Assembly: GCA_022825825.1 (NCBI GenBank) | Contig: JAJDWA010000005.1 | Coordinates: 1-64,000, forward strand | Length of the DNA stretch: 64,000 nt | Origin: Candidatus Poribacteria bacterium | Lineage (GTDB): Bacteria; Poribacteria; WGA-4E; WGA-3G | Reading direction: 5' to 3' | Part shown: piece after piece, positions 38,292-57,660 of the stretch | How positions within the stretch are numbered: the first letter of the stretch is position 1 | How the letters are laid out: every line of letters begins with the position of its first letter | Notes under the pieces: generated by a model | What the model saw: only the letters and a program-made list of their open reading frames with translations | Told to the model about the DNA's origin: nothing | Database searches by the model: none | Translations under genes and position numbers: made by a program

Positions 38292-38331
38292 AAAGTAAAA
38301 ACCTCCTCGTTCCGATCTGGAGACGAGAAGG
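38292..38331 (-). terminator. T-box attenuator terminator before ilvB
   Basis: CCTTCTCGT (38331-38323) pairs with ACGAGGAGG (38310-38302) over 9 bp with one G-U, followed by TTTTTACTTT. It directly follows the T-box antiterminator motif and is the switchable terminator of the riboswitch. Confidence 0.8.
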
Positions 38332-38594
38332 ATTGATAAAATAACCTTACCGTGGTACCACTCCAATTCTTTCCCTATTTCAAAAATGTTTAAAACCTTG
38401 AACAAGGAAAAGCACTCTTGGGATGCGATAACGGACATCACACCGACTAATCCTACTTATCGGAGATCGCTCCTACAGTCGTTCAGATTAGCAGCTCCAG
38501 GGCGACCTTCAGTCGTAGGCACTTGAGAAGACCTTTCAGCCTGTGAGTCTTCCTCTCTTGCAAGTCCGGAGGACCTACTCCTCCCTTTCAACGC
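38292..38594 (-). promoter_or_regulatory. T-box riboswitch leader of ilvB-ilvN, likely isoleucine specifier
   Basis: The minus-strand RNA reads from a stem I base (CGTT at 38593-38590 pairing with AACG at 38483-38480). It has AGTA on the 5' side, a GAGAGGAAG bulge and a GGCTGAAAGGTC distal loop. The antiterminator motif GGAGTGGTACCACGG is at 38364-38350, an exact T-box hallmark. The likely specifier is AUC (38488-38486), just before UGAACG, which would read tRNA-Ile and fit acetolactate synthase. Uncharged tRNA would stabilise the antiterminator and allow transcription. A CUC in UUCUCAAG is the weaker alternative. Confidence 0.85.
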
Positions 38595-38679
38595 TTTTTG
38601 GTAATCTATTCAATTTTATTACAACCCGTCTTTGTTAATTATTACGGGTATTTCTGAAACTTTTAATTTTCTTTACTAA

Positions 38680-54114: not shown

Positions 54115-55521
54115 TTATCTTTTCTGGAAAGCACGTTGTCTGTAGAGATGCTCAAACAAATTGCCTTCATGCGGACTGTCCCAAGAAATCTGATTCGTCG
54201 GAATAGTACCTAAATTTAGTCGATCAACAAGAGGTGTTACCATTAAAGCTTGAGTCAGTTCTGCATCTTCGGTAATAACGGTAGCGACTAAAGTTGCCCC
54301 AATAGATTCGATGAGTTTTGCAGCTGGCACTTCAATGACACTTACGAACGGAAACGGGAATTCTGTGTTTGCCAGAGGATGTTCTGGGTCTTCACACCAA
54401 ATAACCGTCGGTCTGAGGAAGGTGCAACCGTCTAATTCAATAACCCGTTCACCAGTTGTCAGTTCTGTTGCCCCGGATTGCTTGAGATGTCGGTCAATCA
54501 GCGAAGAGATACTATGGGCAGCTTTCGGATTTGCCCATGCCGCAATTCCTGCTTCTGGATGATCAAGCGGCTTCGGTTCAATTCGTCCTAAACGTTCCGC
54601 TAATGCTTCGGCAATAGATATGCCATGTGCCGTTACCCACACGCCAGAGGCATTTATGCATGATCTGCCCCCGTTTTTAGAAACTGATTCTACAATGAGA
54701 TCAAGATATTTTTTCCAGTTTGTCTGTTCCCCTTCATGAATGACGATTTTGCTGCGCCCCGGCCCGTGGATTTCCACGCGTGGGTCATTTAACCATGGCT
54801 CAACAGTTGAACCACCCCCAAACAGCATGGATCTACCACATCGGAATAGGATTTCGTTGGCACCGGGATAATTGGTCGGATAAAAACTAAACGCTTCCGG
54901 CGGCACACCAGCTTCTATAAACGCTTGTGCTATTCGATACGGAGTCCACGGTTCCTCACGCCCCGGTTTTAACACCAGCGGTACTTTTAGTGCTACGGCG
55001 GGAATCCACAAAGAATGAACACCGGGAGAATTGCTCGGCAACACAGCACCTAACGCATCTGTTTCACAAACATAACTCAACATCTGGCCATTCTGCAAAC
55101 CCCACCCTGAGTCGAGAATTTGCAAATCAAGCCCGCGTGTCAAGCCATTCAACACTGTTTCTATATTCTCTAAAACACCTTGTATTTTTCCCATGTTTTG
55201 TTGACAAAGCGTTTCAGGTAAACCTGTTGTGCCAGAAACCTGTTTGATATAATCTGTCGGCGATTGTGTGCCGCCATCAAGCGGGAGGTCTGCGGTAGTG
55301 AACAAGCGCGCAGCATCTTTACACATGACAATCAATTCCGAAACGGAATGTTGTGAAAGTGTTTGCTTGTGAAGTGGTAAGTCGCGGAGGTCCTTGGCTA
55401 TCAAACCGGTATTCGCTTGGCTAACTTCCACTAACGGCTCGCCTGTTTTGATGTGTGAGACACTGACAGTCTTCAAACTTCTATATGAACGCCCGGCGCG
55501 TAGAATAGGGATGTGTACCAT
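54115..55521 (-). CDS. Aldehyde dehydrogenase superfamily protein
   Basis: 468 aa from the ATG at 55521, with AAGGTAG about 9 bases upstream and 8 bases after the beta-propeller stop. ALDH fold: the cofactor-binding block AVLPSNSPGVHSLWIPAVALKVPLVLKPGREEPWTPYRIAQAF, the catalytic cysteine in NGGRSCINASG, and a C-terminal TEFPFPFVSVIEV. The general-base glutamate in ELGGK-type motifs is replaced by HGPGRSKIV, so the usual ALDH mechanism may be altered. An acylating or thiol-ester variant is possible. It is the third gene of the selN operon. Confidence 0.8.
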   Translation of the reverse strand: MVHIPILRAGRSYRSLKTVSVSHIKTGEPLVEVSQANTGLIAKDLRDLPLHKQTLSQHSVSELIVMCKDAARLFTTADLPLDGGTQSPTDYIKQVSGTTGLPETLCQQNMGKIQGVLENIETVLNGLTRGLDLQILDSGWGLQNGQMLSYVCETDALGAVLPSNSPGVHSLWIPAVALKVPLVLKPGREEPWTPYRIAQAFIEAGVPPEAFSFYPTNYPGANEILFRCGRSMLFGGGSTVEPWLNDPRVEIHGPGRSKIVIHEGEQTNWKKYLDLIVESVSKNGGRSCINASGVWVTAHGISIAEALAERLGRIEPKPLDHPEAGIAAWANPKAAHSISSLIDRHLKQSGATELTTGERVIELDGCTFLRPTVIWCEDPEHPLANTEFPFPFVSVIEVPAAKLIESIGATLVATVITEDAELTQALMVTPLVDRLNLGTIPTNQISWDSPHEGNLFEHLYRQRAFQKR

Positions 55522-55529
55522 GTTTTCGG

Positions 55530-56225
55530 CTACCTTGTAATCTTTGCAACCCACCCAGAAGATGCATCGCAATAGAGGAAATCATTACCGTAAATGGATA
55601 AACCGTGCGGCTCAGGGTAATCTTCTGACACTTCAATCTTATCCAATATTGTTCCATCTTCAAGGTCAAGTTTGACAATAACCCGGTCAGAGGTATGCGT
55701 TACCCAAAGTCCGTTTTCTACTCGGACAGTCCCATGTGCTCTGCCGTAGGGTAAGGGCAACGTGTGCTGGATTGACCAATCGGAAATTCTAACCTTGTGT
55801 ATCTCCTGATTTTTGAGTGTTTGTACCCAGAGATGTCCTTCGTCATAGTTGTCATATTCAACACCGTGTGTTCCGCCACCCTCTGGCACAGGATAGCGCC
55901 CGAGTGTTTCACCTGTGTCTGGATCAACCTGAAAAATCTCGCCAGATTTGGCATCTGTATCTCGGACAGCGCGCCAGCGATCACCAGACCCATTCGCTGC
56001 TAACCAGAGTGCCCCTTCGCCGAACGTCATGCCACTGGTATTGGAGGATTCGCTTGGAATATCACGGATATGTTTCGGCACGTGATACTCTGGATCACAA
56101 CTGATTTCAACTAAAGCGACTCTGTCGGTGATTTGGTCTACTATCCACAAACCATCGTCTGTAACTTGTAAACCGTTCGGGACTGCGTAAGGTGAACGAA
56201 AGACTTTTTCAATTTTTGTTATCAT
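55530..56225 (-). CDS. SMP-30/NHL-like beta-propeller protein
   Basis: 231 aa, with repeated strands (VPNGLQVTDDGLWIVDQ, NTSGMTFGEGALWLAANG, THGVEYDNYDEGHLWVQT, AHGTVRVENGLWVTHT, EPHGLSIYGNDFLYC) that make a six-bladed propeller of the SMP-30/NHL class. No signal peptide, so it stays in the cytoplasm. The H residues at propeller mouths (THG, AHG, PHG) suggest a metal- or ligand-binding site, as in lactonases, but the metal triad is not proved. It begins 14 bases after the selN stop. Confidence 0.75.
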   Translation of the reverse strand: MITKIEKVFRSPYAVPNGLQVTDDGLWIVDQITDRVALVEISCDPEYHVPKHIRDIPSESSNTSGMTFGEGALWLAANGSGDRWRAVRDTDAKSGEIFQVDPDTGETLGRYPVPEGGGTHGVEYDNYDEGHLWVQTLKNQEIHKVRISDWSIQHTLPLPYGRAHGTVRVENGLWVTHTSDRVIVKLDLEDGTILDKIEVSEDYPEPHGLSIYGNDFLYCDASSGWVAKITR

Positions 56226-56239
56226 ATTTGGATTCCTCT

Positions 56240-57400
56240 TCAGTGTCTATTTGCTTGCGCTAAAGATGACTTTAACCATCTAAAATATTTGGATTTTCGT
56301 TCATTACCGGGAAAAGATTTGTGAAACTCATTCGTGGGCAGATGTTGGATAAACTCCAATTCTGGTGTCAGAATCAGAGAGTCCACGGGATATACAAAAT
56401 GCTCTTGGAGTTTTGTCGCTAACATAGCGGCAGCAGCGCCTTTGGCACCGTTCTGCAGTTCGGGTAATTCTTGCAGTAGAACCCAAACATTGACAAAGTG
56501 CGTGTTGAGTAACTTGATGGCTTTCAATGAAGAGAGCGGACCCGCTCTCAAAATTTTACCCGACCCTCAGCACGATTCATCATCAAGTGTACCCAATAAA
56601 ACTAACGCGTGGATGGGACGATTTGTTCCTTTCGCGAGTTCAACCGTATCCTCAATCGGGATCCACTCAATTTCAGCAAACTTGTAGAATGCAGTCGCTA
56701 ACTTTTTGCGGGCTTCTTTTTCAGTAATGGCGGTTTCCCATGCTATCTCGCGTACAGGTGTGCTTGATAAAGCGGAGAGTTCCATGCGAGGGATAAAAGC
56801 CATATCTGCTGCCCTGAACACATTAACATCTACATTGCTATTGCGTGTCGGAAGAAACAGAAAAAACTCTACAACTGCTCCTTCCTTTCGATTCAGTACC
56901 AGTCGTCCTGCAAACTGTGCTGGCAACAAACGGATACCAGACGTGTCCAGCACGAACTGCGCATGAATTCGGAAGACAACTTCGGCGTAATTGGGCGAAA
57001 TTGCCCGTAAACACGCTTTTGCTCCTTCATATCTATGTGTTCTGCGGGAAAAGACGGTGATCTCCGTTGTTGCTCCCGGGTGAAACTGACAGAGGAAAGG
57101 GAGGATCCCTTTCGGGTCCAGTTCCCAAATATCCCCTACATTAGCAGTCGAAGACGGAAGAAAAACTTGAAAGTCGGTTTGGCTGTAGTTCTTCAATGGG
57201 TGCGCAGGTTTAGGATTGAAAAGTTCCAACGCTTGTTCCCACTCCATATTCACTGGTTCTGGCAACCGTGCTTTGAGTCTATCAAACTGTTCTTGTGTTG
57301 GCTGATGCAAGTTGTACGTAGCATCCGCGATTGGATCCCAATGTGCTTGCACCTGCACACCCGCTGTACTACTAAGAACATTACTAAAGTCCACTATCAC
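56240..57400 (-). CDS. Selenoprotein N (SelN/SELENON) homologue with in-frame UGA (selenocysteine)
   Basis: 386 aa if UGA at 56569-56567 is read as Sec (U278). The frame before ends LLGTLDDESC and continues after the UGA as GSGKILRAGPLSSLKAIKLL, giving SCUGSGK, equivalent to SCUGSGR in animal SelN. Other collinear segments: FQVFLPS, FHPGATTE, then ACLRAISPNYAEVVFRIHAQF, AQFAGRLVL, IPRMEL, and NTHFVNVWVLLQELPEL after the Sec. Animal SelN is an ER-membrane reductase tied to calcium handling; here there is no signal peptide or membrane helix, so the protein should be cytosolic. The GTG at 57400 has AGGAG 9 bases upstream. A hairpin fitting the bacterial SECIS follows the UGA. selA, selB, selC and selD are not in the window. 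Confidence 0.88.
56532..56549 (-). promoter_or_regulatory. Bacterial SECIS element of the SelN homologue
   Basis: On the mRNA, GAGAGCG (56549-56543), loop GGTC, then CGCTCTC (56538-56532), a perfect 7-bp stem starting 17 bases after the UGA. The apical loop begins with G and lies 24 bases from the UGA, within the 16-37-base window of bacterial SECIS. It would be bound by SelB to insert selenocysteine. Confidence 0.8.
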
Positions 57401-57660
57401 CTTATTTTTCTCCTATTTGTTAGAACGATTTAGTAAACACCTGCTACGACGGTCTCTTGTAGTTTAGAAATAGACAGAGATTTTAACCTTTTCACCAGGA
57501 ATTGGTTCGGTTTGATCTGCTTCGTCAATTTTCTCGGATCCGCCTCATGTAGTTGCAATTAGGTTAGCGCTGCTATAGTACTGGTATGGCAGTGTCAAAC
57601 CGGTCGGTGGCTCATCACCTTCGGCGTACCTATAAAGATATAGGAGACTATCATCACAAT
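57401..57660 (-). other. Long 5' leader of the selN operon
   Basis: About 260 bases separate the promoter from the GTG start. Early in the leader is a hairpin, CCTATA-TCTT-TATAGG (57644-57629), then GGTG-CACC and GGTA-TACC pairings (roughly 57560-57630). One frame of the leader looks protein-like near its end (about 57464-57544, ending in KVKISVYF) but it has no start and an in-frame TGA at 57547-57545. It could be a regulatory RNA or the tail of a decayed gene. I do not recognise a known riboswitch in it. Confidence 0.35.

Follow-up and report, generated by a model that had tools for sequence, protein, structure and literature searches.

In the window, by which we mean the whole 64,000-nucleotide stretch of Candidatus Poribacteria DNA analysed here, one reading frame is interrupted by a UGA codon and resumes directly beyond it. 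The locus thus raises the question of whether this UGA is read as selenocysteine (Sec) in a bacterial homolog of selenoprotein N (SelN) and, if so, what such a protein might do. Under translation table 11 the locus is read as a 277-aa ORF and a TTG-initiated ORF of 103 aa. When the UGA is read as Sec, the product has 386 residues, with Sec278 in the context LGTLDDESCUGSGKILRAGPLSS and the motif SC[U]GSGK around it. The frame, the in-frame UGA, the motif and the resumption of the frame reported in a preliminary description of this DNA are all as described there, and they are backed by conservation of a coding type. The length of 103 residues given there for the resumed part is that of the TTG-initiated ORF, whereas the same frame continues for 108 codons before its terminal UGA. 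Because 5.5% of random frames in the window are open over 108 codons, the open downstream frame is by itself weak evidence, and conservation has to decide. Positions of the features are listed in Table 1.

Table 1. Features of the selN locus and its surroundings (window positions).
Feature	Positions	Strand	Basis
Bacterial selN, GTG-initiated and closed by TGA; product of 386 aa including Sec278	56240..57400	minus	Sequence; relatives in 64 of 84 genomes of the phylum
AGGAG 9 nt upstream of the GTG; likely ribosome-binding site	57410..57414	minus	Sequence; function inferred
In-frame UGA, reading as Sec278, beside invariant Cys277	56567..56569	minus	UGA at 104 of 106 sites
SelN-specific N-terminal part with the conserved FRIH segment, roughly residues 63-243 (limits approximate)	56672..57214	minus	Alignment; model pLDDT 90
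Predicted C-terminal thioredoxin-like domain (DsbH/AGR/UAS kind) containing Cys277-Sec278 (limits approximate)	56243..56671	minus	Fold matches, their placing here inferred
TGA taken as the true stop	56240..56242	minus	Close orthologs end at or near here; TGA is the stop in 34 of 100 SelN frames
Putative bSECIS hairpin (GAGAGCG-GGUC-CGCUCUC) with its apical loop 24 nt downstream of the UGA	56532..56549	minus	Stem tests; bSECIS constraints
Vgb-lyase-like neighbor (sub-threshold Pfam match)	55530..56225	minus	Family in 18 of 19 orthologous loci
Aldehyde dehydrogenase-family neighbor	54115..55572	minus	Family in 17 of 19 orthologous loci

Relation to SELENON and predicted fold

Over 355 columns the window protein is 31% identical to human SELENON (E = 2e-42), and a profile of the bacterial family matches the same sequence with E = 4.4e-67, with no match reported for 200 shuffles or for the reversed sequence. 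The SELENON sequence used in these comparisons was not taken from a database copy; on that footing, membership in the SelN family appears clear from the alignments. The four segments quoted in the preliminary description align collinearly with this SELENON sequence, and its central claim of a SelN homolog with a Cys-Sec motif is supported, none of the outcomes it had named as refuting having been met; Sec itself has not been demonstrated.

SELENON (SEPN1), which occurs in animals and some algae, shares with the bacterial protein the SCUGSG[KR] stretch and a collinear homology that runs through both parts of the protein. In the portion of PMC7539508 available to us, algal SelN is described as occurring almost exclusively in the Sec form. 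In contrast to SELENON, a type II ER membrane protein, the window copy has no EF-hand match in Pfam and, by eye, no membrane anchor or N-terminal hydrophobic segment. The animal gene carries its SECIS element in the 3'-UTR, whereas the bacterial genes carry a putative bacterial SECIS within the coding sequence, and the bacterial family differs further in its many paralogs and in its fusions to TlpA-like domains and ECF sigma factors. Since we take the EF-hand and the type II ER topology to be features of the animal subtype, our claim is membership in the SelN family and not in that subtype. Inspection by eye found no signal peptide or membrane segment in the window protein, which fits the earlier proposal of a soluble bacterial form, and this copy is probably soluble and cytosolic. 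The proposal does not extend to every copy, as a simple hydropathy test detected an N-terminal hydrophobic stretch in 15 of 107 SelN frames; this test is uninformative for frames with short N-terminal extensions, including that of the window copy.

We modeled the structure with AlphaFold2 on 30 aligned members, Sec being written as Cys in the model as in the alignments. Alignment A1 combined the window protein and three orthologs with 26 representatives, obtained from 28 by omitting a double-domain frame and the window's own copy; alignment A4 contained the window protein and 15 of the A1 sequences. In the model (pLDDT 90, pTM 0.86) a short helix follows the strand formed by residues 263-268 and opens with residue 278. 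The top Foldseek matches are thioredoxin-like, namely the DsbH-type structures 7tkv and 2ju5, 3f9u, 3ira, the ER protein Rp19 (1sen), AGR2, AGR3 and a UAS domain. Three matches had E values of 0.001 or less, and TM-scores by target length were 0.15-0.60 for the thioredoxin-like entries among the first nine. The Foldseek output gave no aligned ranges, and the placing of these matches on the C-terminal part is inferred. The expectation of a thioredoxin-like fold with a redox residue opening a helix after a strand is thus met, albeit in a predicted model with Cys for Sec and with modest TM-scores.

The full product has no match in Pfam (E up to 10) or NCBIfam (E up to 1), and in the copy of the PDB searched by sequence there were only weak matches and no convincingly similar chain. 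The C-terminal 143 residues have a sub-threshold Pfam match to Thioredox_DsbH (E = 0.15); a Pfam match of the second half to LETM2_N (E = 0.11) was dismissed as being at chance level. In a weak profile alignment with 3ira (E = 1.1), the two cysteines of CHWC are matched by Sec and Gly281, in that order. The bacterial protein resembles domains of the DsbH, ERp19, AGR2 and UAS types in the fold matches of its model and, weakly, in the alignment of Sec with their first active-site Cys, but it differs from them in having Gly in place of the second Cys, the presumed resolving Cys at position −1 and a large additional N-terminal part.

Proposed chemistry, fusions and neighboring genes

We consider it likely that bacterial SelN is a selenol-thiol oxidoreductase, in which Sec is inserted by SelB with the help of a hairpin and which works through a Cys277-Sec278 cycle. 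The homology, the conservation of the UGA, the SECIS-like hairpin, the Sec machinery and the predicted fold are the basis of this proposal; Sec incorporation, catalysis, the nucleophilic and resolving roles, the reductant and the substrate are inferred. SelB with Sec-tRNA(UCA) would decode the UGA, controlled by the hairpin that closely follows it. In a C-terminal domain of the DsbH/AGR/UAS kind, predicted to have a thioredoxin-like fold, Sec278 would be the attacking residue in place of the first cysteine of a CxxC motif, Gly281 would stand in place of the second, and Cys277 would probably act as the resolving thiol. We propose this assignment because of the position of Sec at the helix start in the model and the weak alignment with 3ira, and the step itself remains inferred. 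The vicinal Cys-Sec pair would then form a selenenylsulfide to be reduced by a thioredoxin-type protein, while the N-terminal SelN-specific part may hold a partner or substrate. A vicinal Cys-Sec pair is also found in the C-terminal GCUG of mammalian thioredoxin reductase, which we take to be a member of a different protein family that is similar to SelN in chemistry only. The resemblance of the SCUG motif of SELENON to GCUG has been pointed out (PMC12839072, available in part).

One SelN subfamily is fused to a TlpA-like domain (Redoxin/AhpC-TSA by Pfam in the two scanned). Only one of the 17 TlpA-type fusions listed has a CxxC motif (L050, WCGFC), and the other 16 have WNxFC or WHSFC. These 16 thus cannot be classical thioredoxins, and the case for the recycling step of the proposed mechanism is weaker as a result.

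It is also possible, though we think it unlikely, that SelN contains Sec but serves mainly as a redox sensor or regulator and not as a cellular disulfide reductase; this alternative shares the Sec and SelN parts of the preferred reading, so the two assessments are not additive. In three genomes (G030, G038 and G040), ECF sigma regions, a hydrophobic segment and a SelN domain with its UGA lie in one frame, with Pfam sigma matches shown for the G038 and G040 fusions, and a gene resembling those for TonB-dependent receptors adjoins the fusion in both loci examined (L107 and L108). SELENON has been reported to be a calcium sensor with redox activity (PMC7474598, available in part). The window copy, however, is a stand-alone protein without an EF-hand match and lies in a conserved neighborhood of enzyme-like genes. 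For the sigma-SelN fusions, a one-chain, Sec-based redox regulator is a possible role. The sigma-SelN frames are at L107:3953-6058, L108:4705-6810 and L090:1088-3172.

In addition to the two neighbors in Table 1, a weakly AMP-binding-like gene (below the Pfam cut-off) lies near selN in 18 of 19 orthologous loci, and a 95% identical copy of it is present on another contig of the window's genome. This gene content hints, by inference only, at an aldehyde- or acyl-related setting for the window copy.

Many SelN copies carry a recurrent C-terminal domain of about 135 residues (e.g. L081:7398-8999), which is sometimes doubled. Its motif resembles QDYTVVxIDTTAF...GSxNAFxAKISV, and no convincing Pfam match was found in the four examples scanned.

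Reading of the in-frame UGA

We examined the Sec site in homologous loci. The fetched loci contain 113 SelN domains, seven of which end short of the site, leaving 106 sites, with one frame that holds two SelN domains (L033) counted once. UGA occurs at the same place in 104 of these sites, Gly in two and Cys in none, and the preceding Cys is present in all 106. Both this count and that for the 73 placements from which the profile was built (58 of them used, UGA in all 73) are partly redundant, as several loci are the same genome under two names; the 106 sites reduce to 90 distinct ones. An ungapped comparison of the window gene with 21 orthologous loci over the 70 codons after the UGA gave 227, 174 and 527 differences at codon positions 1, 2 and 3, a skew towards the third position that indicates a coding pattern downstream of the UGA.

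Two further Gly copies were fetched on purpose, giving four in total (L083:6544-8337, L084:1378-3180, L105 and L106), in which the Gly codon is GGA or GGC. All four are single uninterrupted frames through the site, and in two of them (L083 and L106) the hairpin loop is altered as well. In the tree the four Gly copies form one clade with one Sec copy nested inside (support 0.988), indicating that Sec and Gly have been exchanged within one orthologous set. Among the matches listed, those without an internal stop are all either Gly copies or end ahead of the Sec site; for the matches with one TGA, its position at the Sec site was not confirmed individually. A Cys homolog is usual for selenoproteins, although not required, and none was found among the 106 sites, which may explain why searches for Cys/Sec pairs did not report the SelN family.

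These patterns bear on whether the UGA is a genuine stop, with the two frames representing two separate proteins or a decayed gene. Table 11 does yield two ORFs, and a few relatives look broken (G029:C39 and G021:C14 with a TAA, G069:C70 in pieces). Nevertheless, the UGA shared by 104 of 106 sites with conserved flanks on both sides, the invariant preceding Cys, the coding pattern downstream and the Gly copies that read straight through make this explanation very improbable. The preliminary description had allowed that close relatives might not share the site, or that the downstream frame might show no conservation, either of which would have refuted it. Neither is the case, as the UGA lies within one frame conserved on both flanks, Gly is confined to four copies of one orthologous set and the downstream part aligns among relatives.

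Reassignment of UGA to an ordinary sense codon such as Gly or Trp is even harder to credit and was rejected, for although Gly is the sole replacement seen and UGA is a Gly codon in NCBI table 25, UGA serves as the stop of selN itself, of 34 of 100 SelN frames and of 6 of the 33 mechanical window ORFs of at least 250 aa (the SelN frame among them), and the in-frame UGA occurs at one fixed place in the company of tRNA-Sec, selA, selB and a SECIS-like hairpin.

The putative bSECIS hairpin in the window gene has a stem of 7 bp, the loop GGUC, a spacing of 24 nt and a free energy of −11.9 kcal/mol, and it satisfies the bSECIS constraints quoted in the available part of PMC13188914 (loop of 3-9 nt, stem of 4-16 bp, G in the first two loop positions, spacing of 16-37 nt and MFE of at most −7.5). 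Across sites the hairpin start is fixed at 17 nt after the UGA, and two types occur: type 1, typically GAGRGC-GGGUCC-GCUCUC, accounts for 50 of the 88 distinct sites, 46 of which have the loop GGGUCC, and type 2, GAGRRC-AGKU-GYYCUC, for the other 38. A perfect 6-bp stem is present at 85 of the 88 distinct sites, compared with 2.6 expected under synonymous recoding; for the window gene alone, the chance of such a stem is 0.01.

Other tests of the hairpin were less decisive. Paired cells make up 99.1% and 100% in the two hairpin sets, each of which has two pairs with changes on both sides, and the covariation score exceeds those of all 500 shuffles in both. These pair counts cover 84 of the 88 distinct sites, including 46 of 50 of type 1, the four with other loops having been left out. 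In the slid control for type 1, a slide of +2 gave as many double changes as the structure itself (two pairs, three cells) but only 73.3% paired cells, and covariation alone is therefore modest evidence. The folding energy of the whole region was only weakly better than that of synonymous recodings (mean z = −1.04, 15 of 88 sites below 5%), and for that reason the stem-specific test was used instead. Only that test provides strong evidence for a SECIS-like hairpin. The Rfam model SECIS_1 has no match in the window's own genome, but it has none in 14 control genomes either, so that its silence is uninformative.

The window's genome (G000, 84% complete) encodes selA (610.7 bits), selB (352.2) and selD (371.8), all above the cut-off, and the selB match ends some 35 bases away from a tRNA-Sec with anticodon TCA (UCA). 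Its selD has an in-frame UGA of its own in a GUASK stretch. Absence of this machinery, for which the preliminary description had advised a search, would have counted against Sec, and all four components were found. Among the 64 SelN-bearing genomes, 57 have a tRNA-Sec above the cut-off, and 4 of the other 7 have selB above it; no selA, selB or tRNA-Sec above the cut-off was detected in the remaining G003, G010 and G068 (73-83% complete), although G068 has pieces of selA. A further 14 genomes have tRNA-Sec without SelN, and SelN is thus not the sole use of Sec in the phylum. Co-occurrence of SelA and SelB has been reported for most sponge-symbiont bins of various phyla (PMC5649159, available in part).

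Earlier reports and distribution

The prokaryotic selenoprotein families in Table 1 of PMC13188914, a 2026 review, share UGA recoding with a downstream hairpin with the genes described here, but SelN is not in that table, which lists 119 families or subfamilies by the review's own count. Neither Pfam, NCBIfam, a sequence search of the PDB nor the literature searched, which did not cover most subscription journals, yielded a bacterial SelN, and a prior report cannot be excluded. A bacterial SelN-like protein has perhaps been mentioned somewhere earlier, in a source that we did not find. The preliminary description suggested tentatively that SelN-like genes had been noted in Candidatus Poribacteria; this remains unconfirmed, as no literature pairing 'selenoprotein' with Poribacteria was found, and in the accessible part of PMC9999580 selenocysteine appears in the reference list only. 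SelN has been called apparently specific to animals (PMC2375036) and placed in vertebrates and some invertebrates (PMC12839072), each source being available in part, and the text of the latter contains no word starting with 'bacteri' or 'prokaryot'.

The SelN profile of 30 members found SelN in 64 of 84 genomes of the phylum, all within one order. It occurs in every one of the 58 genomes in the window's family, in both genomes of a second family, in 4 of the 9 of a third and in none of the 15 others. Summed over genomes there are 444 matches, fragments included, with a median of 6 and a maximum of 17 per genome. A contig scan of 84,980 species returned 39 loci, all from Poribacteria MAGs. As its queries were short peptide patterns taken from the window protein and back-translated, it may have overlooked distant relatives in other phyla, and sampling outside the phylum is poor. 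No SelN relative was found in IMG/VR viral contigs or in plasmids.

Human SELENON is poorly understood, and its loss leads to muscle disease. Sponge-associated bacteria appear to make Sec-containing relatives of it, which could provide soluble versions for studying its chemistry. With stand-alone and fused forms carrying a native SECIS, structure, substrate and Cys-Sec chemistry might become testable in E. coli, and the SelN-sigma fusions hint at a regulatory role for selenium. More tentatively, and with rather more doubt than confidence, we suggest that the unusually large, varied and nearly all-Sec SelN family of Poribacteria is a general redox module, used in the cytosol, at the envelope, in TlpA-like fusions and, in single-chain ECF sigma factors that would sense redox state through Sec, as the extracytoplasmic half, and that animal SELENON may descend from the bacterial family or share an origin with it. 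The further suggestion of the preliminary description, that a bacterial form could reveal the ancestral chemistry, has not been shown to hold, and whether transfer went from bacteria to animals or the other way is undecided.

Of the six SelN matches in the window's own genome, four are tandem SelN selenoprotein genes on contig C25 (L081, G000:C25:82000-92500). Elsewhere, two SelN matches contain one further stop, a TAA (G029:C39:35398-36384 and G021:C14:43625-44614), and one is in pieces (G069:C70:16264-18180), and all three are perhaps broken copies. Away from selN, the window also contains a T-box leader on the minus strand at 38316-38600 (106.8 bits).
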